Below are positions 1-64,000 of a stretch of 64,000 bases of DNA, piece by piece. The stretch is from Dacryopinax spathularia (lineage: Eukaryota; Basidiomycota; Dacrymycetes; Dacrymycetales; Dacrymycetaceae): positions 1,640,085-1,704,084 of the forward strand of contig JBBPFI010000008.1 of NCBI GenBank assembly GCA_037974965.1, read 5' to 3'. The translations under genes and the position numbers were made by a program. The notes under the pieces were generated by a model. The model had not been told where the DNA came from and made no database searches. It saw nothing but the letters and a program-made list of their open reading frames with translations. Numbering within the stretch: the first letter of the stretch is position 1; each line of letters begins with the position of its first letter.

Positions 1-1660
1 CTCGTCGAACAACTCGTAGCCTGACGCTGATGTAGTGGAACACGTTCACCCACTGTAGCCGGACGTCGATCTCGTCGAACCACTTGTAGCCTGACGCAAG
101 TCAGTTGTAGCCTGACGCTGCTGTAGTGGAATACGTCGATCTCCTTGAACAACGCGTAGCCTGACGCTGCTCTAGTGAAACACGTTCACCCGCTGTAGCC
201 GGACGTCGATGTCGTCGAACAACTTGTAGCCTGACGCAGGGCAGTTGTAGCCTGACGCTGCTGCAGTGGAATAGGCCTACTCGCTGTAGCCGGACGGCGT
301 TCTCGTCGAACATCTCGTAGCCTGACGTTGATGTAGTGGAAGACGTTCACCCGCTGTAGCCTGACGGCGTTCTCGTCGAACTTCTCGTAGCCTGACGTTC
401 ATGTAGTGGAACACGCTCACCCGCTGTAGCCAGACGTCGATCTCGTTGAACCCCTTGTAGCCTGACGCAGGTCAGTTGTAGCCTGATGCAGCTCGAGTGG
501 AACACGCTCACCCGCTGTAGCCGGACGTCGTTTTCGTCGAACATCTCGTAGCCTGACGTTGATCTAGTGGAACACGCTCACCCGCTGTAGCCGGACGTCG
601 ATGTCGTCGAACAAGTTGTAGCCTGGCGCAGGTCAGTTGTAGCCTGACGCAGCTCGAGTGGAACACGCTCACCCGCTGTAGCCTGACGGCGTTCCCGTCG
701 AACATCTCGTAGCCTGACGTTGATGTAGTGGAACACGTTCACCCGCTGTAGCCTGACGGCGTTCTCGTCGAACATCTCGTAGCCTGACGTTGATCTAGTG
801 GAACACGCTCACCCGCTGTAGCCGGACGTCGATGTCGTCGAACAACTTGTAGCCTGACGCAGGTCAGTTGTAGCCTGACGCAGCTCGAGTGGAACACGCT
901 CACCCGCTGTAGCCTGACGGCATTCTCGTCGGTTGTAGCCTGACGCAGCTCGAGTGGAACACGCTCACCCGCTGTAGCCGGACGTCAATGTCGTCGAACA
1001 ACTTGTAGCCTGACGCAGGTCAGTTGTAGCCTGACGCAGCTCGAGTGGAACACGCTCACCCGCTGTAGCCTGACGGCATTCTCATCGAACATCTCGTAGC
1101 CTGACGTTGATGTAGTGGAATAGGCGTACCCGCTGTAGCCGGACGGCGTTCTCGTGGAACCACTTGTAGCCTGACGCAAGTCAGTTGTAGCCTGACGCTG
1201 ATGTAGTGGAATAGGCTTACCCGCTGTCGCCGGACGCCGATCTCGTTGAACAAGTTGTAGCCTGGCGCAGGTCAGTTGTAGCCAACGCTGCTCTAGTGGA
1301 ACACGCTCACCCGCTGTAGCCGGACGTCGATGTCGTCGAACAAGTTGTAGCCTGGCGCAGGTCAGTTGTAGCCTGACGCAGCTCGAGTGGAACACGCTCA
1401 CCCGCTGTAGCCTGACGGCATTCTCGTCGGTTGTAGCCTGACGCAGCTCGAGTGGAACACGCTCACCGCCGTAGCTGGACGACGTTCTCGTTGAACAACG
1501 TGTAGCCTGACGACCGTCAGTTGTAGCCTGACGCTGCTCTAGTGGAATAGGCTCCACTGCCGTAGCCCGACCGTTTTGGCGGTGAACAGGAGATTCGCAC
1601 TCGGCTGGGTTGTAGCCAGACGTCCTCATATCGTAGACAAATGCGTTTTCTGCCCTGGAT
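1..1660. repeat. Interspersed GTAGCCTGACG repeat array (left array)
   Basis: About fifty copies of a GTAGCC motif, more than thirty of them the full GTAGCCTGAC, all on the plus strand. Neighbouring motifs are mostly spaced 39, 31 or 21 bases apart, giving three unit types: a 39-base unit carrying GTAGTGGAACACGTTCACCC, a 31-base unit carrying GTCGTCGAACAA, and a short 21-base unit. They follow each other in changing order. Open frames run through the array on both strands only because the units lack stop codons. The array continues to the window edge, so its left end is not seen. The same motif recurs inverted near 19.4-19.7 kb. Confidence 0.9.
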
Positions 1661-2488: not shown

Positions 2489-4223
2489 ATGCCACCAGCT
2501 GCTCGTTGTGTTAATGGGCACACGTACAATCAGACTCGTAAACGACGGCTCCTCAAGGTCAAGCCGATCGATCTCGCCACCACAGGGTGCGCATATATGC
2601 ATACATCAAATCTATGGTACATTACTGACGCCCATCGCCAGACCACCACCTCCCATAGGTGGTTTCCAGCCATATGACACCTTCAGTGCCTATGCTTTGC
2701 AACAAACCAAGCCTTTGAATACCGTTCCTCGTTGGCGACTCCCATCGCTCTGGCCGGAGGATGATGTTGCCGTCGTCCCTCGTACCGCGACTGCGAAAGT
2801 CTTGAACATGCAGCCGATCCAGCGACTACACAACACTCGCCATCCAACGGATACAGCGCCCTCCCTCTCGCAGGCGACATCTCACAGAGCCAATGCCCAC
2901 CCTACCCCACGTCCATGTGTCTCTACCCCGAAGGGGAGAGCAATGACGTCTGGCTACAGGCCGCCCCATACCAGCGTGGACCCCTTTTGGGACGAACACG
3001 GTCCTTCTCGGCAATGGCCCCAGTCCACACAAGACAATCCCCTGGATAGGCCGGTCGTCCCTGTGGCGCCTACCGCGAAGGCGATGCCCCCCCTGGACCC
3101 GCTTGTCGACGGTCCCTCCCCATGGGCGCGGTGTCCGGAGGATGCGCTATACGAACGGGGCCTTATGGATGATTGTTCAGAGTTAGGTGCGACCGAGGGT
3201 CGTTCCCACAACTACACCAGAGGGCCCATTCGTCAAGATCCGGTGGACGAAGATAACCTCCATCATTGTTGGCCGACCATGGACGAAGATCCAGAAGACG
3301 CGAGCATGGCTCCCGGAGGCAGCGCTCGACACGACCAGCTACCTCCGAGGTCGTCCCCCTCCCCACCTTGTCGCTCCCCCATACCCAGGGCTCCTGTATC
3401 ACCCCCCACCGCCCCCTCCACTCCTTCCCCACACCGCCATACACCAACCCGCTCCTCTTCCCCATCACCCCGTCAAGACTCCCCACCCTACAAGCCTGGG
3501 AAGCCTAGCGTCGGAGGCGAACATTCGATATCCACCCTACTCACTACGCGTGAGAGTCAGTCCCAGTCATCCGCGTCCTCCCCACCGCAACGGAGGAAGC
3601 AATGCAAGAAGCCGCGGTCATGCCGACCAACTGCCTCACGCCGTAGTAGGCGATCGCGCGTCGTTAAGCTTCAGGGTGAACTACGTGCATACTGTTTGGT
3701 TGGTAATCCCTTTCATGGAGATCGGGTCATTTGATTAATGCCCCCCATTGCAGAAGGTAATGAAGCACCTCAAGTTCGCCGTAATGGGGGTTCCGATGCA
3801 TGCTTGTATCCCCCCGTACATGCCGAACCCACCACACTATCAAGGGCACGAAGTCATCTTACCGGATATGAGACAGGGCCGCAACGCACCTGTCAATCAG
3901 CGTTTTCAAGACGCATTGGTCAGCCGCACCCTGGACTTCATCATGGTTAGCCCCGTACACAGCTCGGTGAATGTCGCATTGCTGATGGACGCCATCATTC
4001 TAAGGCTGACACCAGCGCCAATGCGCCTGCCCAGAGTAAGCGTGATGAAGTGACTGGTGACCTTCTCCGCGCTCTGTGGAGGCGTAGCATGTGGGATTCA
4101 GTGTTTGCCAAGTGGCGGGCGGAGAACGATCCTGAGGCGCGGGCGAAGCTACAACGGAAGCAGGCAGCACACAGAGAGAATATGGCGAAAAGTCGGCAGG
4201 CGAAGGTACGCAACGAGTGGTGA
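2489..4223 (+). CDS. Candidate gene of unknown function, exon structure uncertain
   Basis: The 3' part is the best supported. An exon starting at 3757 (KVMKHLKFAVMG) runs to 3950, an intron of about 50 nt ends in CTAAG near 4003, and a last exon ends in a basic, Arg/Gln-rich tail (ENMAKSRQAKVRNEW) with the stop at 4221-4223. A GTAATC...TTGCAG intron at about 3702-3756 links it to an upstream Pro-rich exon in phase. Further upstream a long Pro/Ser-rich frame from about 2508 needs at least one more frame switch between 3190 and 3600, which I could not place. The basic C-terminus could bind nucleic acid, but no domain is recognised. First gene inside the left array. Confidence 0.4.
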
Positions 4224-4771
4224 TGAGGATGAACGTACTCGCTTAACCGACCCTTAGCGCGACCGCTTGCCGGACCAGTCAACGTAGTAGGCCGTCCCGA
4301 CTTCCGAAACCTGCCAGTTTTGAAGTAGGCTGGGTTTTGTTGTGCGCTTGGTCATTGTTATTGTAAGCATACCTTGTACCTTTGACTCAGAAAATTGAGC
4401 TGCTGCCGAATGAAAAGTAGTGTTTGGCTGATCATTTACAGCCGTGACGGCCTGTCAATGATCGCAAGGCCGAGAGCGGTCATGCTGTCCAATTGCCATC
4501 ATCGCACGGATGTTCACCCGGGGGCGGATGAGTCTGAGCACGTCCGCTGGCGCTCGCGCCTAACAGCGCGGAGTAAACACATCTGATCCCGGCTCGCTCG
4601 GCCGACGACCCTGAACGCTGCCCATAGTCACCGGTACGTTTTGGTTCCGTCGCCATTCCAGAGGACCTCACTGTCTTGCCCGATCCTCACCTGTCACACG
4701 CCCCGCATCCACTCTATCCCGGCAGCCGACTTAGCTCCCTCGGGTATCTGTTCATCGTTCTGACACACATC
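4224..4771. other. Intergenic region
   Basis: About 550 bases between two plus-strand genes. I see no coding exon with matching splice sites, no RNA gene and no obvious repeat; the promoter of the next gene presumably lies here. Confidence 0.5.
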
Positions 4772-6252
4772 ATGGCCGCCCCTGCACCCGCGCTTGGCGC
4801 TCGCTCCGCCTTCGACTGGACGTTCGTGCGCGATCTGTTACAGACTGGAGAGGATGATACCGAAGTACGCCGCTTTGATTGGTCTCTTCGCTCTAACCCA
4901 CGCTGGCAGACTATCCTCGCCACACTCCAATCCTGTGCATCCAAAATACAGCAACGATGGCCCGCGGCGACCTCCCTCTTCCATAATCTCATTTCCCCGG
5001 CTACTCTCGCAAGAACCACAACGGCGAACCCCACAGGTGTACGGTACGCACGCTGATGGATTTCGCGGTTGGCCTGCTCTCATTGCCGGACAGGCCATCG
5101 TTCGACTGGAATTACTATCGCTCGACACAACGTTGGCGCGAGGCCTTGCCCCAGTTGATCCCCTTCTTCACGGATTCGTCCATCGTGAAGGTGCCGATTC
5201 CTCTATGGGGAAGCCAGATGGTATACGCAGATGCGATCGGAGCCATCGGTGCGTTGTTGTGTCACTGTTCTAGTATCTGCGATAACAAGGGATTAGGCTT
5301 CTTGCTCTCGCACGCGCATCCACCTGATTCACTGGCAGCCAGTAACGCGCTGCTACTGGCGACCGCCCATTGTTTGAAGCGGCTCTACCCTCTCGGGGGC
5401 AGACCGCACGTGTTCGCGATGCCGTTTATGGACGAGGCCCTTTTTATTCAACGAGCCCTAATACCGATCGATGTTACCATTCCTCCGTCGCCAAACAAAG
5501 ACAAGCCGCCCATCGCCCCAAACGACCCCGACCGCCTCGTTCATGTGCAGTCGGCCAAGGAAGCGAACCACCATACACGCATGGACCTGCTGAAGTCGCT
5601 GGTGCCGGCCAGCGACGTCGAAGAGCTCAAGAGGTGGACTAAGCGCGGTTATGAGGAGGAGTGGTGCTGTGGCGAACGTGCATCTGATAGCGGGCCGGAT
5701 GAGCTTTGGTGCGCTGAGACCAAAATCGGTCTGTTGTTAGTACTATTCGTCGCTGCACTGAATACAGCCTGACCTCGTCCTAGCATGGTCCTCCTTGCCA
5801 AAAAGGCCAGCCCCCATGTGAGGCAAGCGTTCCATGGGAAGACTATCGTCATCAACTGCTTGGGCGAAGCTGGTCTCGACGCTGCCTTGGAATCGCTTGC
5901 TGCAAGTACACAGAATCTCGACCCTGATGCCATTGCGGCGCTCTTTGGGGCTGCAATTCGCGATTCCTTTGAAGGGTTATTCATCCCCGTCTGCTTTCGT
6001 TGCAAACTCTTCATCTCTTACGCACACTCCCTGCTCGTCAAGCAGCACTGTATTCTGAAGTTCAAGATCTACGACAGGATGGACGACGGCACGATCCGCG
6101 AGGTGGACTGGGTACCCTGGACGCTGCACCAGATGCGTGGCCCTTGGAAGCCCGACGATATCGCGCGGCGTGCACAGCCTGCAAGCGCTCAGAGAGCTGC
6201 GCCGGCCAAAGGGCACGTGGCTCAAGGCAATCCTTGGACGCGTCTTCGCTGA
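4772..6252 (+). CDS. Unknown protein, three exons, about 451 residues
   Basis: Starts at ATG 4772. Intron 1 is 5044-5093 (GTACGC...GGACAG, 50 nt) and joins the frames in phase. Intron 2 is best read as 5709-5783, which ends in a clear CTGAC-plus-CCTAG acceptor; an alternative, 5740-5805, also keeps phase. The N-terminus contains two short related stretches (FDWTFVRD and FDWNYYRS), suggesting an internal duplication, followed by a helical middle region and a Gln/Ala-rich basic tail. No family recognised. It lies between the inverted motif arrays and is transcribed away from the left array, like the gene upstream of it. Confidence 0.65.
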
Positions 6253-6396
6253 GTCCCGTGTATGTGGGACGGTACAGGCTTCCAGACTGTAGAACATTTG
6301 ATAGCATCCAACTGTATGACACAATAGAGATGTACATAGCAGGAACAGTGGCCGGAGGCGCCTCACTCATCCAACCGGAATAAGCATACCTAGCAC

Positions 6397-8683
6397 TTAA
6401 CTAGATCTGGATACCCAAGGGTGTCCATAACCGAGTCTCGTCCAGATATTGCGTGCACGCTCAGAGGCGATCGACGCGTCCGGAAGCTTGGCAATCATGG
6501 CCTTCAGCATGGTTTCGTCGAGTTTGCGCGAGTCGGCGGCGTCCAGGACAGGCACATTCAAGGTAAAACGTTCGAAGCCTTGAGGGGCATTTGCCAGCAT
6601 GGGATCGAAGCACTGGTCCCATGATGTACACATCTGGTAGGGTAACCGATAGCGAGCGGCGTTGTCGTCCTCCTCCTCGTAGCAGTCCAATCGGAAGAAT
6701 CTCGGTCCAATGGAGTAATCGACCACCACTACCCAAGAACGCACGTCGGCGCCGGCAGTCATGGTTACCAGACGCGCGGTTGGGGCCACGCCATACCCAT
6801 CTCTTAATACGGATCTGATGTGCAGGAACATTTGCAGAATGGACGCGTCTCGGGGCTGGGCAAATGTATTTGCCGGCAGTTGTTGGGGGCTAATCGGGAT
6901 TTCGTCAGCGACCAATGCTGCGCGCACACGAGCTTCGACTGGGGTAGCTGTAACCAGGCTAAGGTCCTGTGAGAGGTCCAGATTCAGTATCTCTCGTAAA
7001 CAGCGACACTGATCCTGGGTCAGCTCACCGGAGGTAATGTGGAGCGAATCTCCCCGCAGGTGACAGAGCGTAGCGGACAGTCGGAAATAGCCAAACGAGC
7101 AGGGGCAGGTGGGGGCGCGACTTCAGTGTCGGTGAGGCATATGTATGTCCAGGTCGCGGAGCCGTGGTGACCTACGATGGCTGTAGAGCCTGCCACGCTG
7201 ATGAAGCGGGCATGGCCAAGCAGATTATCCTGCTTGGCGCCGAGCGCCACCAAGGTCATGTCGGCCTTGGCATAGATAGGCACGTCAACTCCTTCAGTGG
7301 CCCCGCCGATGGGGCACGCCCACAACTGCCACGCCTGGTTCAGCTCCCGGAAGTTGAGCAAAAAGAAGAACACGTCGTCAGTGCTAGAAAGTGTCATAGC
7401 TGAGGGATATGCCGCCATCGCCGTGTCCTCGCTACCGAAGGTTGGGGCCTTGGGTGACCCATCCATGCCTTTGGGACTGGTCCAAGCCTTGGGCAACAAG
7501 ACGATGCCAAATTCGCTGAAGTGAAAGCGTGAGGCCGGCCGACGCATCTCCATGACCTCGTGGCGCTCCACAGCCGGCGCCGGGAGGTCATCCGTGGTTC
7601 CCATCGCATAAACATGCACCTCGGAGGAATATTGGATGGCCATCTGGGCGTGCGTCGTGAGGGTGCGGACCGCCACATTGAGGGGGGTTTCCGGCAATTC
7701 CCACCAAAGGGCGGGCGCGACAGGACGGGCCTCGGTGGTTTGAAGCGCGTCAAGATCCCAAACTTCCACAGCCGCCGTCAAGTTGTTGGTAAGGAACAGC
7801 GCCCCGGGCACGAAACTGCCCCACCAGCGACTGGGTGCCTGCGACATTGATCAGTATACCCAGGCCCTTCCCGGGAGCAAATGCAGCGTACTAGGGCATC
7901 CGAACGCAACCGTCTGACTGCACCATCACGGCGGGAGCGCGCATGTAAGTCGGGTTGGCCGTTGCGATGCGAACAAATAACCCATTGCTCGTTGCAAGTG
8001 ATGAGGCCGGTACTGCCGTCAAAATCCGCGGCCGGTGTGCGTCTGAGCCCGTCCGCGGAAAATTCATAGGCGAAGGTCCGATACTGCGTCTCCGTAGGGT
8101 CATGGGGCTCCCCATGCACCAGATCGAGAGATACGAAGATGTGGGTCGTGTTGGTTAACGGTGCCGCCGCAAAAGTACAACCAAGGACGGTAACTGGGGT
8201 TCTCGACGAAGAACTCAGCAAGTTGTCCTGCCAGACCGGTCGGATGTCGTCGATGCCCAGTTGGTACAGTTGCAAGCAACCATCGAGCCGGACTGCAAGC
8301 GCATATGTGGGCGAAAGTAAATGAAGACTGGAGAGACCATGGTTTCCGGAATCTAGGGGTACCAGGAAAGGAGCCCATGAGTGCATCCTCGCCGCCGGGA
8401 CCGGTTCTCCACCCTTCCACCAGCTCTCCTCCCACCGCTCGGACTGCACCAGCGTGCCATCCGAAGTGCGCCCTGCCGTCGAGGACTGCGACGACAGCTC
8501 CTCAGTGTCCGCCAGCGAGTGGGCCGGTGATCCGTGGGTTCCCGTTTCTCTCAGCCGCTTGCGCGGTGGTGAGGGCGTCGTAGGTGCTTTGTTCTGAGAC
8601 TGAGTTTGGTCGAAGGACAGATTGGGCCTGACCATACTGCGTTTCGCCCCAGTGTCGGTCATTGGAGAGCGTGGACTATTCAT
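6397..8683 (-). CDS. Unknown protein, three exons, about 727 residues
   Basis: Minus-strand gene starting at 8683. Intron 1 is 7839-7891 (GTACGC...TCGCAG, with CTGAT branch) and intron 2 is 7015-7064 (GTCACC...CCCAG, with GCTGAC branch). Both are about 50 nt and keep phase, giving 264, 258 and 205 codons. Residues 1-110 are low-complexity and polar. The central 400 residues alternate hydrophobic strands with turns (for example AVEVWDLDAL and VEVHVYAMG-like stretches), which resembles a beta-propeller, but I see no regular WD signature. The C-terminal 200 residues are mixed alpha/beta. No family can be named. It is convergent with the plus-strand gene ending at 6252. Confidence 0.7.
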
Positions 8684-9179
8684 GTTGTGGATGGGAAGGA
8701 GGGATGAAGTGGTCCAACGTGACTGTGTGACGGTCTCTTGATACCGACGAGGAAGACCATGTGGCGCGTCAACACGGAGGTAATTAAACGTAACATGGTA
8801 TGACTAATAAGAAACTTCCACTTGCATCCAGTAACTAGTATAAGTAGAGGAGTTGGCAGTGAGTGCCTTCTCCCGCACAGGGGCCGCGCGACCCCCATGA
8901 AGTAGTCATGTAAATGTCCTCAGTGCAATTGCCATGTCCCTCGCTCCACCCTCCTTCGGCCCCGTCTTGCTCGTACTACTCATGGAAAGTTGGCCCAGTG
9001 GCGGGGACATCGACACGTCATGTGGCTGACAGAACCATACCGGAAGCATTTGAAACTAAGTGGGTGATAACCGGGATAATCATCGGCTCCGCTGCATGAG
9101 CTCCCTTCTGCACTTGAGCACGCATCATGAATATAACTTTCGACCCAGTCCTTGACCTGGTCCCGTTCTAGGCATTTTC
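8684..9179. other. Intergenic region
   Basis: About 500 bases upstream of the 727-residue gene and downstream of the F-box-like gene. Short frames only; nothing supported. Confidence 0.5.
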
Positions 9180-10795
9180 TCAATGAGCGTTCGGCAGCGA
9201 GGCGACGAGTCGCTCCGGCTGAGGATGTCCCTCCTCCTCCATAGCCCTGATCCCGGCGATCATGGCTTTAACTCGCTTCCATCGCGGGTTGTGACGGTGA
9301 CATTCCAAGGTAAGCCCAGGCCACGCGTGCAAGAAGACGAGAGCCGCGTAGTGGTCGCACCCAAACATGGGTTTCTCCGCGATGAGAAGGATCGGCGCCT
9401 TGCGGGACAGCGGATGGGGCCAGCCCACTTTTTGTAGGAATACAACCAGTGAGACATGTATGCGCTTGAGTTGTGGGCAGTTGCGGGTCAAACGCGCAAG
9501 GCCCGCAATTGTGATGTTGCGTGGTTCCATAAAAGATGAACCGCCGCCTTCAATACGCCATACGTTGTGGCTCAAGCTCTGCCATTGGATTGTCAGGCGT
9601 TGTAAGGCAGGCCAATGAGATGCGAGATCAACCAAGTCGTCATCACTACACACGAAGGCAGCACCGATGTCAAATCGAAACTGGAACTGGGTGAGACAGG
9701 TGCATGCCTGCAGCGGGTGGAGTGACTGGACGTTGCCCTCAAGCGCGGCCACGTTGTTTTCCAAGGCAGGCGAAAAAGCGAACCGAAGAGCATGGATTTG
9801 AGGTTGGGAGAGGGAGACAAACGTTGCCAGCTGGTGAACTTCAGTAGGGGCTTCCCTAATGTGGCAGTCCACTGCCAATGACACTAGCTCGACCTTGATG
9901 GCTTGCAGAATGGCAATCACGTCAGATATCGTAGTGTCATCGATAGCGAGCTCTCTCAAGCCCCGGCTCGCAGCAGCGCTGGTCATTGCCAGCCGCGTTT
10001 GAAGCTCTTCCTGCAAAGCCGTGCCTTGGATCCGTAAGGCAGTGACACTCGGCCGAGTGAGCACGTAATCCAGGATGCCTGGCGAGAGCGAATGTATGCT
10101 GAGGGACACACTTCTCAACCCCTCCAACTGGGTCATGCCCTGTTGCCATGTGGATTCGAGGCCCTGAAGAAGGTTGTCGTTGCTGTGTGGGTTCAAAAGG
10201 GCGACACTGGATAGGTGGGCAGCCTTGGCGCAGATCAGCGGCAGAGTGTGATGAAAGTGCTTTCGCCAGTCTTCCAGAGATGAAGCATCCGGGAGGCCGA
10301 CAGTAGATGTGAGGACGAGGCAATTCGTAGCGGGCGACAGCATTAAGGGTATATACTTCAGCAGCGATGCGTCACAACAGCTGAAGTGAAGCTCCACTAG
10401 TGCGGGAAAGAGATCCTCATCGACGGTACACTGCTGACGAATGAGTCCGAGGGCCAAGACGAAGCAGGCCTCATGCTCTTCCTCCAAAACCACTTCGAGG
10501 TGCATTAGGCTGGTGCAATAGAAGTGAGTTCGAAGGACGGTCTGAGAACGCTCGCCAATGTTCTCATCAGCATTCAAGCACTGTTTGAAAGACCTACCTT
10601 GGCGCTCGGGCGTTCTGGTGCACAGAGCATCTCTGCGATGCGCCACACATGCTGCGTCTGACCCGTCCGCCACATATGGCGCAGAGCCAGGGGAAACCTG
10701 GCTATCGCCAAATTCCGAAGATCATCGTGCTTCAGATACTGCAATATGGACAAGACGAGTTCTGGTACAGCGAGTGCGGACCTTGTATGCGCCAT
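9180..10795 (-). CDS. F-box-like protein with leucine-rich C-terminal region
   Basis: Two exons, 10795-10598 and 10550-9180, with a 47-nt intron (GTAGGT...GGCGAG, GCTGAT branch), encode about 522 residues. The N-terminus (VPELVLSILQYLKHDDLRNL, residues about 9-28) has the Pro-Glu-Leu and spaced leucines of an F-box, which in known proteins binds Skp1 in SCF ubiquitin ligases. The rest is rich in spaced Leu/Ile with patches such as CPQLKRIHVSL, typical of the irregular leucine-rich regions after fungal F-boxes. It probably recruits a protein substrate; which one is unknown. It sits inside the accessory island, with a HECT-like ligase gene 12 kb to the right, so two ubiquitin-related genes lie in the same island. 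Confidence 0.7.
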
Positions 10796-13778: not shown

Positions 13779-15358
13779 TCATGCCGCAACCCCGGGCCAG
13801 TGCCCTGCAATCTCCTCGCGCAACCACACCGAGGAGGTCTGCCGAGCCGTCAACATATGAAAGCGAATGATGACGGTAACATACCGTGTACTCCATATAG
13901 TTTTGGACACGCTCCACTACCCCATCCTGTGGGTTCCTGAAAGTAACCATGACTTGCAGTTTAAGGCAGCCGGCGGCGTTGATCTGGAGGGAAACTTTCT
14001 TGCCTATGCGCGCCGCATTCGTAGCCGCGCGGAAACAGGAGGCCGGATAGCTGCGTACAGAGGTCACAACCACATCCCAAGACCTCCCGCTGCCTCTAGA
14101 TACGCACCGAAACGGCATGCCATGAGGCCCTACCCACTCCATTTTCTCCAGTGCGCCGGGCCGTTCAGGATGGAAAGGCAGCACATACTGCAAGGCAGTT
14201 CAACAGATTTCTGAAGTAGGAAGAAGAACCCCACCTGGCTGGAGCTCATCCCAGTGTCACCACGAGCCGATAGTTTGAGCTGGTGTCCCACCGTTGATGC
14301 GTCGGCTTCAGGGAATACATCTGCCATCACCGCATGCGGGATGGTGCGGACTGACACCTCGATCACCGGCGGGGCATCCACTCTCAAAAGAGTGTCCACG
14401 ATGTCCAGGTAGCGCTCGTTCGACATAATAACGCACAGAATAACCGGCCTGAGTTTCCTTTAGTCTTCTGCCTTCATCCACTCTCCCGTCGGCGGAAAAG
14501 ATTACGTACGCCTCATTAAAGGACAGGACGTTCTTCGGGCGAGGCTCGTGAGTATTGAGGCACGCTTCAGTCTGGCTGCCGGGGCACCCCAAGGGTGTCC
14601 TTCCCAAGACGAGTCAGCACAACGCCGCCAGCGTCATCTGAAGAGGACGCATACATGATGAGTCGCAGCGGATGACCGTAACCCGTCCAGGAGAGGTGCA
14701 AACTGGTCTCGGCGCCCCAGACCCTCTCCTGCACACCACCGCCGGCATATACGTCCAAGGCGCCCAGAAGACGACTGAAAGCAATATCGAGCCCATACCC
14801 CGCGCCCCCATGTCCTTCGTCCAAACGAAAGTTGGAGAACGTCTCGCCATACATATAAGTCGAACCTGCATATATGCGTCCCAATCAGACTGTGTGAGGG
14901 CTTCACGGCGACGTAACCGGGCTTACAGACATAGGGGGCACCATCCGGCTGGATTTGGAAATGAAGACCGACGGGGTCGAGATGGAAAGTGACCCAAGGG
15001 CACTGAAGAGCGCACAATCAACGCCGCGCAGGTGCGTCGAAGGCAACGCAGAGCGGACCTGCTTTTCACTTGTCTCCATAGCTTTGAGCATGAGGACCAT
15101 GGGCATAACACTGGCGGTTTCGAGGAGGAGAGCGGGCATCTGGTGGAGCAGTGAATACGGACCAGAACAGCCGACGAGAGGACTCACACTGGTAGTCCGG
15201 GCGGGGTGGTGGATGGCAGGATAGTAGGGATAGCCAGGGTTCAGCGAGAGTCGCGTCGAGTGATTGGCCGCGCTGCATCCCGGGAGGGTCAAGGGCCGGC
15301 GGCGGAGCGACGGGCCAGCATCTGTAGAAGGCGCTTGTGCTGTGTTGTCGGCTGGCAT
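13779..15358 (-). CDS. Unknown protein, seven exons, about 421 residues
   Basis: Exons 15358-15059, 15002-14927, 14865-14588, 14544-14510, 14448-14235, 14187-13885 and 13838-13779 join in phase (422 codons including stop). Introns are 43-61 nt; several have clear GTAAGC, GTACGT or GTATGT donors. The start is the first ATG of the open frame and is followed by a polar leader. The middle of the protein contains alternating Gly- and Tyr-rich strands (GAGYGLDIAFSRLLGALDV). No domain recognised. It is preceded on the other side by a 1.5-kb gap and followed 200 bases later by the cysteine-motif gene on the same strand. Confidence 0.65.
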
Positions 15359-57240: not shown

Positions 57241-57549
57241 TGGTGCGATCCATGAGTATGATCAAGCATGACTGATGATTCTAGCTGGCTAAGTCTTACT
57301 TTAGGTAAAGCTTTATTCTACCCAAAACTGAGTCCTTGGGGACCAGGTATGCTTGTAGCCTGGCCTGGCAGCAATGACCTAAGCCATGATATGCAGGCAA
57401 AGCCGCCATGCCATATCATATTGCTCAGGAAGTCCACCTCGATATTGCTGGAGAAACAATCACCTTCCGAAATCTATAGGTATATTACAGTGGGTTCGGG
57501 TTGGGTTTGCATACATGTATGGGTTTATACAGTGGCTTCCAGCATCTTA
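57241..57549. other. Intergenic region
   Basis: About 310 bases between the pseudogene and the minisatellite; nothing supported. Confidence 0.5.
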
Positions 57550-57739
57550 GTGGTGTCGTTCTGGCGCGAACGGCCCCACCAAGGGGTGGTGGTGTCGTTC
57601 TGGCGCGAACGGCCCCACCAAGGGATGGTGGTGTCGTTCTGGCGCGAACGGCCCCACCAAGGGGTGGTGGTGTCGTTCTGGCGCGAACGGCCCCACCAAG
57701 GGGTGGTGGTGGCGTTCTGGCGCGAACGGCCCCACCAAG
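57550..57739. repeat. 39-bp minisatellite, five copies
   Basis: Five nearly identical 39-base units. Each holds a 30-nt near-palindrome (GTGGTGTCGTTCTGG then CGCGAACGGCCCCAC) plus a nine-base spacer. Thirty-nine is divisible by three, so the plus strand codes a 13-residue repeat (SFWRERPHQGVVV), which I regard as accidental. The palindrome is the same one found at the 5' ends of four introns in the two genes to the right. Confidence 0.95.
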
Positions 57740-57996
57740 TAAACCAGGGCAATTGCACTGGCAATCATGCTATCAGCCGACACATCAACTGGTGACTCTC
57801 GCTTCAGAACTGCCCCACTTGGTACACTTGAAGCTCATGGTAACCTTTTTATCTGCAGGTATCTATATGGTTTCAGCACGTCTTCTGAAGGTATCCTGCT
57901 ACATTGGTTGAACATGTGCTATGCTGACTGTTGAAGCAGCAGTATGAAGTACACCATGTTGAAGGTAGTACTTCGACAAGAAACCGTTAATCTAAT

Positions 57997-60900
57997 TCAC
58001 CACGCCGAGTTTGCAGTTGACCCAAATCCCCTGCGTCGCTTCTCAGCTGCAATCCTTGATAAGAGCTCTGCCTCGGATTGTTTGCGTTTTGATGAGCCTG
58101 AAGGAACTGCTGTGGCTTCACGAGTATCTGCCAAAGTGACAGCAGTGGCTGAAAACGAGCTTGGAGGCGGTCGAAGTAAGTTTTGTGCCTGGTACCATTG
58201 CATTTCCTTTGTTCCCAGTAGCTCTTCCAATACCCTTGCATAGTCCGCAGCAGACCAAAGACGCTGCAGCATCAACCAATCCTCTACTAGATCATCACGG
58301 GACTTGAATCGGTAGTTCCCTGCCTCAGGACAGCCACCTGAGAGCAAGCGAGTGTCGGTGCCAATCACTTGATAAAGACCAAGGTTGCAGAAAAGAGGTA
58401 AGCTAAGGCCTTTGTTTGCTGTAATGAAAGGTGTCAGTGGACATATATCATTGCTATAAACAATTGTACTCACAATGAACCTTTTCTTTGAAGTGATCCA
58501 AGGGCACCTTGGTTTTCTTGAGAATCAGATGCTCCATGTTGTGATGCCAATAAACACAATAGAGCAAAAAAATTGAAATGATAGGACCAATTTTCGTTTG
58601 ACCTTTGCGACGCTTTTGTTTGGCTGCACTTTCCATGTCATCTTTGACGACCAACCGGTTTTGTTCGATGCGGACCTGAAAGGGTGTCGTGCAGTCGGCC
58701 TTTGCAGCGGGAGTTGGTTTTTCATAGTGATAGTTAGGATGAATGCGTGCCAAAAGGGTTGCAAGAAAGATGAACAATTGATGCACCGGGTCTTCCAAAT
58801 TGTCTTCAAGCACTTTGCGAATCAATGTGAATGCCTTCGCATAATCCATGCCTTGCGCTTGAACCCCTTTGCCGCTACACAGATTGCTGATTCCTTCACG
58901 TATCTCTTCTGACAATCGTGTACGGTGAAGTGCAATTGAATAGAAGTTGAGATTCATCGGGTCTTGTGCAAACCATTCTTCACCCGATTCCATGTTAAGG
59001 CGCTGTTGACGTTCAGCATGTGCTTCAAGTGCTTCTTCTGGATCCTCTGGTTCTGAATCTTCTTCATCTTCTTTGACAGTCGCTTTCCTTGGACCAGGCT
59101 CAGACTGGTAGGTTACGCGCACCCAGTGTCTTGGGTTTGGGTATGCCCCGCTGATTGCCCATGGTAGAAGATCAACATGCTCATCAGCAAAAGCACGTTC
59201 GAGACCTTTGTGGATCCATGTGCTGAAGTCCCCACTGAGTGCAGTGGCATGTTGTGGTTCCAACATTGTAATTGCAGCACGCAATGTTCGCACTGCCGGA
59301 CTATGCGGTGATGTGACCGGTACCCCAGGAGGATCCAGTTCTTTTGCTTGACGCCACAGGTTGCCAGTTATGGTGCTGATTGCAATCGTTTTTGATGCTT
59401 CTGACCATGGGAAACTGGGCTGTGCGGGTGTTCCAGTGCCCAATGCAAGTAGGATAGCACGATGACCTTGCTTGCGGTCCCAGCCACCTGGTTCTTCACT
59501 CCACCGTTTCAATGCTTGCAGTTGCCGTTCAAACATGGCTGCCCTTGCCAGTGCTTCATCTGGTGTCAGATCACGCTGACCTTCTGCAGCTCGTTTCAGC
59601 CGCCGAAGTTGCGCTGAACCCCGGGCCAAGATGTGAGGCTTGATTTCAGCCAGTAACCCCTGAATAACCTGTTTGCAGGCTACATTGCGGCGGTTGAGAG
59701 GGGTATCTTTGGTTGTGTTGTAGAGCCGATCCATTACAAGCTGCAATGTTGCCCTCTGCACATACTCCTGCTGGAGTGTCAGTCATTGACAATTCCATAT
59801 TCCATCCACACTCACTTCAGCAGTAGTGACACCCCAATTCTTCAGAGCTGCCCAATATCCAAGAAGTGGGAAACCGGAGCCATCACGACGTTGTGGCCAC
59901 ATATTGGCAGCAATCGACATGCGGCTATGGACCTTATCGCAAGGCCAGAACTCTTCAGTGGTTGTTGGGAAGCCGGTGAGGCGAAACTGCTCTCGCATGC
60001 CGGATGCAAGGTACACTTGACCATCCATCACGATTTGGTTCCCAGACTGCGCAAGGATGATGTTACGTTCACAAATGGAAATGGCTTCCACCACAGTCCA
60101 GCGTGGAGGATGAATACCATGATTACTTTGTTCCAGGAGATCACTCCACAGCCGCTCAAGTGTAACGTTCCATATGTAAGCCGATGAGAGCATCAATTTT
60201 GGCCATATCTTTCAAGCCACCATCAGCAATAGCAGGTAGGCAAAGCAGACACACATACTCCATACCGGAATGGCAATAAACCATCCCTAAAAGCACCTGC
60301 TTGTTTGAAATAAGCCAGGGCGATTGTGCTCAATACCCCAACAATGCCTCTGTGAATGTGTCAGTATAGGGCCGTGACACGCAGTATAAACACAGTGCTC
60401 ACTTGATGTTTCGCTTGGCTTGAGGGAAAAGATGCGGGAACATGACATACTCTGACTCCGATCGGACGCCTATCAAGGTGTCTCCATTCAACAATCGCTC
60501 TGCGACACGCCAATACGGTGTTTTGCGGTTAATTCGGTTCATGAGCTGCCGTGCAGCCAGGCCTTTGGCACCATTTTGGCCAAAGCCCACAGCAGCTGCG
60601 GTGGTGCGGCCCAGCCGTAGATCATTCCGGTTCTGTGCGGTTGCTCGAAGCTTGATCTTGGGACAAGCATAGATCTGATAGCTGGCTGCACGAACCGGTA
60701 CTGGACTGTTACCAGCCTCTTCCCCTAGCACTTTGCTATTGATGACCTCCAAGTCGGTAGCCAAAAAGTTTGGCAGTGTATCTGACTGAATGTTGCAAGC
60801 TGTTTTTGTAAATGCAAGTGGAAACATCTTGACTTTGCGCGGGAGGCCATTTCGCTGCTTGAATTGCTTCATAAACCGTTGGCTGTCTGCTACAATCCCA

Positions 60901-62333
60901 ATGGGACGTCCTTCACTATCGGTGGCCCTGTTTGAGGAATCAGAACAGGGGTTCACTGGTGCGGCTCGGACCAGAACGGCCCCACTTACTCCTGAACCAC
61001 TGCAAGGGCAACAGTGAACCGTCCAATCTTCTCCATACTGTACTTTGATTCCCATAATACTTGCATTTTCTCCCAAGATTCACGAGTGAGCTCAACCTCA
61101 ACGTTTTGGCCATATTTCAGGATGACGAGAAATGGCTCAAAATCTCCAAAATAGTTGTCAGAATCACGCCATGGTGCACGTCTGGCCCAGCTCTGATAGC
61201 GTGCGATCCAAGTTTCATTCAGCAACCGTAGCTGATGGAGATCAAGGTGCACTTCTCCCAATTCCCTGCCTTTAGGTTAGCACAGCTCTCTGATGTCACT
61301 AATCGAACCCACAGATATGATGATACACTCTCATCCATGAAGGCAAACTCATCTTCGCAGAAAATCGAGTGTTGTTGCATGGTGCTGAGAGCATGACATA
61401 GGAATGTGCGAAACTGCTTCATCCGTCGCTCGAAGACAGAAGAGGTTGGCACACCCGGGCGTCTTCTCATTGCTTCATCCTTATGCCGGAAAGCAAAGCC
61501 ACAGAGGCGATTTTGGCATATTCCAACATGAAAGTAATGCCCCATCCATGGAAACCCAATCAATGCATGCTTGTCTCGCAATTTGCGCTTGTAGTCCTTG
61601 GGGTGAATGGTGAGCCAAACATCATCTGATACTGTTCCATCGGGTGGTAGCGCTGCATCCCAGTTTGGCATTGCTGAGATAGCACCAATGCAGTCCAGGA
61701 AAAGCCGTGGTTTCTGCCATTTGATGTTGGCTGCCCATTCCAATGGACGATAGACGGCTGGCTTGGTCTCGTCCAGGAGGTTGATTTCAACTTGCTGGTT
61801 GCGTAGCCATTCACAGTCTGTAGAATGCTGATCGAACTGTTCGTTGAACCATGCCGCAGAAAGGGAGAGAGCATTGTCTTGCATTGTGCGGGAGCCATCA
61901 CCGTCATCTTGAAAAAAGGTTGCATCGGCTTGCGTGGGAGCATCCTCATCATCAACCAAGCGGGGATCGACTTCATCATACTCAGGTGTTGTGTCTCCAA
62001 CTCCAGCTTGATCTTGTGAGGTACTTATCACAGCGCCGTGTAACAAGTCCTCCTCAGCATCTGAGTTGTACTGCAGGTCATCAGGAAACAACTCTGCATC
62101 CTCTTCAGGTTCGCCGTCTAGATCACTATGATCCTCTTCAAAGTCATTGTTCCAACCATTGATGCTGGACATTCTGCCATCGATATCTTGCAATCAGTGG
62201 TGCTGTTCTAGCCAGAGCGGTCCCACTTACCTGGATACACCCCACTGCTTAAGTAAGCAGTTGCGAACAATGGTGCAGTTCCGAACACTGGTGATGATGG
62301 TGGAACAGGAACAAGTTGCACTTGGGCACCCAT
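57997..62333 (-). CDS. Large unknown subtelomeric protein, eight exons, 1,325 residues
   Basis: Exons 62333-62231, 62186-61313, 61265-60990, 60927-60403, 60349-60259, 60208-59816, 59767-58474 and 58418-57997 join with every phase consistent (3,978 nt, 1,326 codons). The start, MGAQVQLVPVPPSS, follows three regularly spaced E-boxes. Residues about 40-130 are acidic. The middle contains conserved-looking globular stretches (HALIGFPWMGHYFHVGICQN, FRTFLCHALSTMQQHSIF, WPKLMLSSAYIWNVTLERLW). An acidic insert (EDEEDSEPEDPEEAL) lies near residue 990, a hydrophobic segment near 1155 and a basic, probably nuclear-targeting tail (KRKQ...EKRRR) at the end. No known helicase, nuclease, transposase or polymerase motif is visible. 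Introns 1 and 3 carry the 30-nt palindrome. Probably a telomere-linked gene family. Confidence 0.8.
60928..60989 (-). repeat. Palindrome-bearing intron (62 nt)
   Basis: Intron 3 of the large subtelomeric gene: GTAA, then GTGGGGCCGTTCTGG/TCCGAGCCGCACCAG (60956-60985), then a TTCTGATTCCTCAAACAG end. The right arm is the most diverged of the four. Confidence 0.8.
62187..62230 (-). repeat. Palindrome-bearing intron (44 nt)
   Basis: Intron 1 of the large subtelomeric gene: GTAA, then GTGGGACCGCTCTGG/CTAGAACAGCACCAC (62197-62226), then a very short CTGATTGCAAG end. Confidence 0.8.
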
Positions 62334-62582
62334 CACTCGAATTGCATGGACTTACGCTCTTAGGTCACATGACAATCACGTGAGGATCACGTGATCTTTG
62401 AAGAGGCTTCACAAACAGTACACACTGCTTTGGCGGGCCGAAACCACATTTTTATTTTTTCAGGCATAAGTTGTGCTCTTAAGGAGCACAACGGCTAGCT
62501 ACAAAGAATACTCAATCATCACCATGTTGGTGAATACAAACTTGCAGGCAACAGGTGGAAGATATACAGAGAGAAAGTCTTT
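62334..62582 (-). promoter_or_regulatory. Promoter region with three E-boxes 11 bases apart
   Basis: CACATG at 62366-62371, CACGTG at 62377-62382 and CACGTG at 62388-62393 begin exactly 11 bases apart, about one turn of the helix, 33-60 bases upstream of the ATG at 62333. Each sits in a TCAC-TGA-like palindrome. Basic helix-loop-helix factors bind such sites. The spacing suggests binding on one face of the DNA. Confidence 0.5.
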
Positions 62583-63866
62583 CTAAACAATCATATCATC
62601 GTACGGCAACATCTCAGAAGCCTGGGTGTCGGGAATTTCCTGTGTCGAGCGTACTGTTGAAGCCTCGTCATCGATGAAAGGATTGCGCTTGCGCTTTGAA
62701 CCTGCTGTCATCAGCATTAGTGGGGGCGTTCTGGCCAGAACGACACCACTTACCAGGTGTACCACGTCCATCTTGACTGTCATCCTCATTGGATGAGCTC
62801 ACTGCCTCAGACTCAGATTCTGGCCCGCCATCCTCCTCAACATTCTCAGTGCTCTTGATGATCTTCTTGGCACGTTTGCCCTTTGAGGTCTTCTGCTTGA
62901 TGGCCTTTACCACAACGCCACGTGTCAGGTCACTAAAACGCTGAGAGAAGTGCTTGCGGATGGTGTCGTCCACTTCAATACCTGGTGGAAGGTGATTCAA
63001 GGCGTACTCTTCCACATTTTCTGCCCAAGCCTTGTAAAGGGCCTCTGCCTCGCTTTCCTGCTTCTCCATATTGGCACGGCGAGTCTCGGCTCGGGCCTCT
63101 TGAGCGGATGCCTTCTTGTTCTCATACGTCTCGGGGACCTGGATTAACAGCATGTCGGGATATGTTGGGTCCTTGAGGTACTTGGTCCGGACCAGAGTAA
63201 GGTATTCGTGCCAGATCTTCACAGACACAATGTTGCGGAGGTACTTGTGTTGGAGGTGGGCCAGTTGCAGTCCTGGTGTGAAGAAACCAGTCTCCAACTC
63301 ACGCTTGCCTTTAGCACCCTGCCATTTGGTTGTCATCGCAAACCAGCGGAAAATAGCCATGAGCTTGTCCGGGTTGGTTGGACGGGGCTCTACCATGCGC
63401 CAGACGCGTTGACTTGATAGGGCACGCCCGAGCTCGAGAACTTGCTTTTGCCAAGCTTCCTGCTCCTTGGCATTGAAGGTGTCACTGTACTGAACCAGCT
63501 TGAGGCTAGTGGTGGTCATGTCGCTAGCCACTCCTGCATTCGTCAAGACAGAGTGCAACGTTTTGGCAAGCTTCTCCATGTCACTGAGCTCGTCATCGAG
63601 GTTGATGTCGGCCAAGAGCGCCTCAACATGCTCAATCCAGTGTAAATCAGCATCACGGTTGTGGCCTTGGGCCCTGAGGAGTGAGCCTGCCCATCCCGGC
63701 TGGCGTCCTTTCCCAGTCACACATCCTGAGCCAGGACCATGTGAACAAAGGAAGAAGTTGGCAAAGGATCCCAACTAGAGAGGAGAATTGGTGAGCACTG
63801 GTGCCGCTCTGGCTAGAACGCCCCCACCTGAATCAAGGTAGGCAAATATTCATCCCACCGGGCCAT
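62583..63866 (-). CDS. Telomere-abutting unknown protein, three exons, 393 residues
   Basis: Exons 63866-63828, 63774-62754 and 62704-62583 join in phase (394 codons). The first codons read MARWDEYLPTLIQ. The protein has a helical middle region (WHEYLTLVRTKYLKDPTYPD; AQEARAETRRANMEKQESEA) and ends in a lysine-rich segment, an acidic patch and KRKRNPF, so it is probably nuclear. No family recognised. The ATG is five bases from the telomere repeat, and the frame remains open into it for only a few codons, so either the gene is cut at its 5' end by telomere addition or the telomere is part of its promoter. Both introns carry the 30-nt palindrome. It reads in the same direction as the large gene 250 bases downstream. 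Confidence 0.75.
62705..62753 (-). repeat. Palindrome-bearing intron (49 nt)
   Basis: Intron 2 of the telomere-abutting gene. GTAA is followed by the palindrome GTGGTGTCGTTCTGG/CCAGAACGCCCCCAC (62720-62749; 13 of 15 positions pair), then CTAATGCTGATGACAG as branch and acceptor. Confidence 0.85.
63775..63827 (-). repeat. Palindrome-bearing intron (53 nt)
   Basis: Intron 1 of the telomere-abutting gene. Here the GT of the donor is the first two bases of the palindrome (GTGGGGGCGTTCTAG/CCAGAGCGGCACCAG, 63798-63827), followed by a pyrimidine-rich TCTCCTCTCTAG acceptor. Confidence 0.85.
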
Positions 63867-63870
63867 TTCG

Positions 63871-64000
63871 GGGTTAGGGTTAGGGTTAGGGTTAGGGTTA
63901 GGGTTAGGGTTAGGGTTAGGGTTAGGGTTAGGGTTAGGGTTAGGGTTAGGGTTAGGGTTAGGGTTAGGGTTAGGGTTAGGGTTAGGGTTAGGGTTAGGGT
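63871..64000. repeat. Telomere, TTAGGG repeats
   Basis: About 21 perfect tandem TTAGGG units reading outward to the end of the sequence, so this is the true right end of a chromosome. The G-rich strand is the plus strand, as expected for a right-hand end. Confidence 0.99.

Follow-up and report, generated by a model that had tools for sequence, protein, structure and literature searches.

A 30-nt near-palindrome in introns and other non-coding DNA of a two-gene chromosome-end element of Dacryopinax spathularia: a candidate private DNA site

DNA transposons of the Spm/En type carry protein-binding repeats in sub-terminal and internal positions, and telomere-associated retrotransposons possess a defined 3' end together with a 5' side that faces the telomere and is variably cut. 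The present analysis concerns a 30-nt near-palindrome in a 64,000-nt stretch of the basidiomycete Dacryopinax spathularia (hereafter the window: positions 1,640,085 to 1,704,084, at the end of contig JBBPFI010000008.1 of assembly GCA_037974965.1; contig C8 in the following): the sequence recurs in a two-gene, chromosome-end-associated and mobile-looking element, here termed F1, and the evidence leans, without being compelling, towards a DNA site that is private to this element. F1 resembles the Spm/En type in the repetition of a short, family-specific motif near the element end and in non-coding parts; it departs from that type in that no known transposase domain was found and in that its palindromes fill introns from the 5' splice site to the branch point. 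Its defined 3' end and the variable cut of its telomere-facing 5' side correspond to those of the telomere-associated retrotransposons. The location at chromosome ends and the presence of tandem repeats are shared with MoTeR (PMC7367193), FoTeR (PMC12857005) and Drosophila HeT-A (PMC5537684); unlike these, F1 contains two intron-bearing genes, and a Pfam scan of its large exons, which a very diverged enzyme could escape, gave no reverse transcriptase match. Short palindromic repeats also run through the intergenic and intronic DNA of Volvox organelles (PMC2670323), and with introners (PMC9860276, PMC7789003, PMC8469720) the F1 palindrome has in common its shortness, its recurrence in several introns, the inverted-repeat symmetry and the contribution of splice-site bases. 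No description of such elements was found in searches of one open-licence library (subscription papers lie outside that coverage).

The splice models used throughout rest on open frames and on splice and branch motifs. When the window was searched with the consensus 30-mer at up to 6 of 30 mismatches, nine palindrome sites appeared versus none in 20 block-shuffled windows; one extra, weak site (at 14155) was obtained once 9 mismatches were allowed. The first-pass annotation of this DNA had reported four introns that share the near-palindrome at their 5' splice site as well as five further copies in a minisatellite, and both were recovered at the coordinates it had given (Table 1), far above chance. 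The same is true of its remark that other introns of the two genes lack the sequence (4 of the 9 introns inside the window are carriers) and of the GTAA which it had described as optional: three of the introns start with GTAA followed by GTGG, and one starts directly with GTGG.

The whole genome (29.2 Mb in 24 contigs) was searched with a degenerate 30-mer at up to 3 mismatches, the reversed pattern serving as control; all genome-wide pattern counts given here are lower bounds. At least 74 F1 palindrome sites per strand were found, versus none for the control. According to a recount on retrieved DNA, 73 of 74 sites belong to F1 copies, with 68 situated in copies or fragments and 5 in C17:1-1600. 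The lone F1-like palindrome found outside F1 (C12:166151-166180; L054 1952-1981) lies approximately 200 nt past the stop of a frame read as alcohol-dehydrogenase-like, and no intron is evident there from the frames; in introns of other genes, no F1 palindrome was found by this search. Matches to a single arm exceeded the control (205 versus 89 at up to 2 mismatches, genome-wide), and nine outlying single-arm loci, when scanned, revealed no convincing second arm, with a 9-mismatch site present at two of them. The palindrome is all but confined to F1 and sits only in non-coding slots, namely upstream of the genes and in the 5' untranslated region, in some introns, and in the array near the 3' terminus. 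An introner family that makes introns across the genome, as had been proposed at first pass, was not borne out by these searches: among introns, the palindrome was found only in those of the two genes of one element, with 73 of 74 matches in F1 and one downstream of the dehydrogenase-like gene; what stands of that proposal is a repeated, palindromic and probably mobile subtelomeric sequence that gives 5' splice-site bases.

The F1 copy on contig C21 carries both genes on one strand, with clean spliced frames of 811 aa (gene 1) and 1326 aa (gene 2). In the window the 5' part of gene 1 is missing and telomere repeats adjoin; gene 2 (1326 aa) and the 3' part of gene 1 are open after splicing. The stretch 57472-63869 of the window is matched, in whole or in part, on C4, C5, C6, C14 and C21 at 97-99%, and the C21 copy and others extend past the point at which the window passes into telomere repeats, with four more palindromes. 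All 12 listed introns of the C21 copy are of the GT..AG type with a CTRAY branch motif; six are palindromic (one in the 5' untranslated region, three in gene 1, two in gene 2), and in 6 of 6 the modelled 5' splice site consists of GTAA(A) plus GTGG, or of GTGG. Extra palindromes are located upstream of gene 1 at C21:929 and 1129. All eight palindromes in C21:902-8644 are non-coding, for which the probability under uniform placement is 7e-7, modelled coding sequence making up 83% of that stretch. In five of the six palindromic introns the branch motif begins at 34-37 (at 47 in intron b), compared with 33-39 in the six palindrome-free introns of the same copy; since these positions are similar with and without the palindrome, the latter appears to replace spacer and not to lengthen the intron, intron b excepted. 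Within F1 introns, the spacer that leads from the 5' splice site to the branch point would be replaced by the palindrome: GTAAGT would be completed by its GTGG end, in the introns at 62705 and 62187 the branch motif would take its first base from the CCAC end, and the whole would be spliced out with the intron instead of being its maker. In gene 2, the first exon of the model contains a short tandem duplication of 18 nt (window 62257-62293). Upstream of gene 1, a satellite of approximately 171 nt forms a single minus-strand open frame of 1253 aa (L037 (C21) 1-560; L035 (C14) 5488-9249). At the other end of the window (7-1571), units of the GTAGCCTGACGC type form a degenerate tandem array with periods of 31-231 nt.

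Table 1. Features of the F1 element and its palindromes in the window (window coordinates)
Feature	Position	Strand	Remarks
TTAGGG telomere repeats	63871..64000	.	adjoin gene 1
Gene 1, 3' part only	62583..63869	(-)	exons 63828-63869, 62754-63774, 62583-62704; coordinates mapped from C21
Gene 1 intron e3/e4, 53 nt	63775..63827	(-)	palindrome 63798-63827 starts at 5' splice site
Gene 1 last intron e4/e5, 49 nt	62705..62753	(-)	GTAA + palindrome 62720-62749 + branch motif
Gene 2, 8 exons	57997..62333	(-)	exons 62231-62333, 61313-62186, 60990-61265, 60403-60927, 60259-60349, 59816-60208, 58474-59770, 57997-58418
Gene 2 first intron, 44 nt	62187..62230	(-)	GTAA + palindrome 62197-62226
Gene 2 intron b, 62 nt	60928..60989	(-)	GTAA + palindrome 60956-60985
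39-nt minisatellite, five palindromes	57550..57739	.	starts 77 nt from F1 3' terminus
F1 3' terminus CCACTGTAATATACCTATAGAT	57472..57493	(-)	10 genome places, different flanks

A search of the genome with exon 6 of gene 2 gave 43 matches, the lowest at 24% identity, and the elements were grouped into the families F1 (that of the window), F2 (C1 type), F3 (C2/C17 type), F4 (C16), F5 (a second element on C6) and F6 (C18); relatives of gene 1 adjoin gene 2 in F2, F4 and F5. Three relatives of the gene 1 N-terminus lie deep inside chromosomes (C2:1115349, C2:2532236, C9:439528). Nine of the ten F1 termini are identical and one differs by a single mismatch, each with a different flank; the three F3 termini end in TATAGAT and the five F2 termini in GTAGGAT. 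Nine of the 18 termini could be matched with an empty target (hits that were other termini or minisatellite pieces being left out of the count); at the junction, the target closes with AT in all nine (one of them at 88% identity) and with GAT in six. The 5' sides are cut variably and adjoin telomere repeats on C8 and C12 and other sequence on C4, C9 and C17; the copies on C14 and C21 are without a 3' terminus and are joined to telomere repeats. With its precise terminus on varied targets and its 5' truncation, F1 agrees with what is expected of a telomere-associated mobile element. A cluster of palindromes is located close to the 3' terminus in three families, at a distance of 77 nt in F1, approximately 145 nt in F2 and approximately 130 nt in F3. 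Behind a 3'-truncated F1 copy, interstitial telomere repeats are followed by other subtelomeric sequence (L037 8647-8753; L036 from 7416), a pattern as if a capped end had later been extended. Furthermore, the F5 element (L034 (C6) 4102-10000) ends at an F1 terminus.

F5 contains a different 30-nt palindrome (GTTTGAACATCCAAC/CTTGTTTGTTCAAAC) in introns b, e3/e4 and e4/e5 and upstream of gene 1 (seven sites at up to 9 mismatches, query included, versus a shuffle mean of 0.08; genome-wide at least four places at up to 3 mismatches, all in F5). That the F1 and F5 palindromes represent one sequence was rejected, their similarity being no better than that to shuffled palindromes. Among the seven introns which, by eye, are common to both families (a, b, c, c2, e2/e3, e3/e4, e4/e5), three carry palindromes in F1 and F5 alike, and the remaining four in neither family (p = 1/35). 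The F2 palindrome (CCATCACGAGCTCGCGCGCGAGCTCGTGATGG) lies beside the F2 genes, at no fewer than 67 places per strand versus none for the control (its position relative to gene 2 was seen in L041, L042, L043 and L047), and F3 and F4 possess the palindromes GTTAGTATACGTCGC/GCGACGTATACTAAC and GGTGGGACGACGCGCATGTGCGTCGTCCCACC, respectively (hairpin scan); those of F2-F4 are located outside the genes. The alternative that survives best, doubtful as it is, regards the palindrome as a selfish short repeat that spreads in the tolerated non-coding DNA of the element and has no binding role: it would account for the non-coding slots, for the presence of both orientations (in the intronic F1 palindromes, column 5 is G in four and T in two) and for the different sequence in each family, and the Volvox organelles provide a precedent. 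However, the fact that F1 and F5 use the same three introns out of seven, together with the clusters near the terminus in three families, suggests placed sites, and the F1-type repeats differ from those of Volvox in being nuclear, in being restricted to one palindrome per element family and in overlapping spliceosomal signals.

The age of the introns bears on whether the palindrome could have made them. Intron b (60928-60989) occurs at the same position, in phase 2, in F1, F2, F3, F4 and F5, and intron e3/e4 (63775-63827) at the same position, in phase 0, in F1, F2 and F5; for intron e4/e5 (62705-62753), the counterpart in F5 is in phase 1 and contains F5's own palindrome, in a low-complexity stretch. 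The F1 palindrome is absent from the counterparts of all three introns in the relatives compared. Since introns b and e3/e4 are found in diverged relatives without the F1 palindrome, both are older than the F1 sequence within them. In this comparison of orthologues, which the first-pass annotation had itself named as a means of refutation, creation of the introns by the palindrome is contradicted for 60928 and 63775, as judged from the modelled positions and phases, and is unlikely for 62705, with its F5 counterpart; for the N-terminal part of gene 2 with the intron at 62187-62230, no alignment to any relative was obtained. An introner-like activity limited to this one host element, with new introns arising by insertion of the palindrome, is considered unlikely. 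It would fit the 5' splice-site bases carried by the palindrome and the position of the latter in place of the spacer, with the branch motif where it usually lies, and it would fit the intron C21:1758-1805 (48 nt, of which 30 are palindrome; outside the window): at that place the F2, F5, C16 and C22 copies have no intron and their frames run through, albeit in a gappy alignment, so that this F1-only intron may be a candidate gain. Against it stand the two testable introns that predate the palindrome and, unlike the situation in introners, the near-confinement to one family without a copy found in the introns of other genes; moreover, the TAA/TRA flanks at some introns are accounted for by the splice motifs, by which a target-site duplication is confounded and was not demonstrated.

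A role in splicing control as an RNA hairpin, which would mask the 5' splice site and the branch point, is very improbable. Its stem would reach from the 5' splice site almost to the branch point, the arms pair in 77.8% of cells versus at most 53.3% when slid, and two of the six F1 introns (z -2.1 and -2.5) and, strongly, F5 intron b (z -5.6) fold better than shuffles. However, the other four F1 introns do not stand apart from shuffles (z -1.3, -0.43, -0.17 and +1.21), palindromes are present outside introns too, the in-register pairing of 77.8% is lower than in shuffles among copies (80.5%), and no covariation was detected in the nine copies, two-sided changes being no commoner than in shuffles. 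The hairpin form suggested at first pass is imperfect in columns 5 and 26, which are unpaired in 8 of 9 copies. This mismatch, the occurrence of both orientations and the lack of covariation are better explained by a DNA site than by an RNA hairpin, and the sequence comparison favours a DNA-level site in F1. A simple recent duplication, i.e. segmental copies of one subtelomere as the cause of the likeness between introns, can be dismissed despite the 97-100% identity of the copies on C4, C5, C6, C8, C14 and C21, since within one copy different introns share the palindrome and yet look unrelated outside it.

If the palindrome is the private DNA site of F1, which we regard as moderately probable, a protein encoded by the element, most likely the product of gene 1, would bind the family-specific palindromes, and protein and site would change together between families; binding, splicing and mobility of the element are what we infer from its sequence. 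The N-terminus of F2 gene 1 aligns weakly, below the curated cut-offs, with DGQHR/DndB/ParB-like proteins (DGQHR, TIGR03187, E 0.0045; DndB, PF14072, E 0.2, 11.1 versus a cut-off of 29.1), and the GQHR/GHHR motif and the ParB likeness of gene 1 were judged by eye. In F5 gene 1, the GHHR motif is shortly followed by either a stop in frame or an intron of unusual kind. No domain was recognised in gene 2, the scanned pieces remaining below the Pfam cut-offs and two exon-6 proteins below those of NCBIfam; among viral contigs, 94 stretches fitted a pattern and no relative was confirmed. Several points weigh against the private-site reading. With 16.8 bits, the DGQHR match falls far short of its cut-off of 58.85 bits, and it was obtained in one of three N-termini; no significant hit came from sequence searches of the PDB (lowest E 1.4 and 1.2). 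The p value of 1/35 is modest, the homology of the introns was judged by eye, and e4/e5 lies in a low-complexity stretch. The hairpin scans of F3 and F4 list unrelated hairpins too, one of them inside F4 gene 2 (L049 4974-5007). Intron b of F2, F3 and F4 and intron e3/e4 of F2, the introns inspected in these families, showed no palindrome, and the use of palindromes in introns may be confined to the F1/F5 clade. One F1-only intron consists largely of the palindrome, suggesting that intron creation may have occurred at least once. Finally, conservation between copies is not significantly higher in the palindromes than in the remaining intron bases (3/210 versus 21/653, p = 0.23); selection on them between copies was rejected accordingly as not significant. 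A wider proposal is only tentative and on balance improbable: the families may together make up a new superfamily of eukaryotic elements at chromosome ends, with two genes and with neither a transposase nor a reverse transcriptase that can be recognised, which share a similar 3' terminus on AT and a ParB/DGQHR-like protein recognising a family palindrome of approximately 30 bp, protein and palindrome co-diverging and the latter being built into introns in one clade.

The comparison separates introns made by a mobile sequence from old introns whose interior has been taken over, two situations that look alike in sequence scans, and the sister elements, whose unrelated palindromes occupy the same introns, open the turnover of intron interiors to testing. 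Provided that the palindromes serve as protein sites, the families would form a natural set for the study of the joint change of protein and site and, should the superfamily reading be true, a natural series of matched protein-site pairs. The F1-type element, for its part, appears to join chromosome ends with no known enzyme of transposition.

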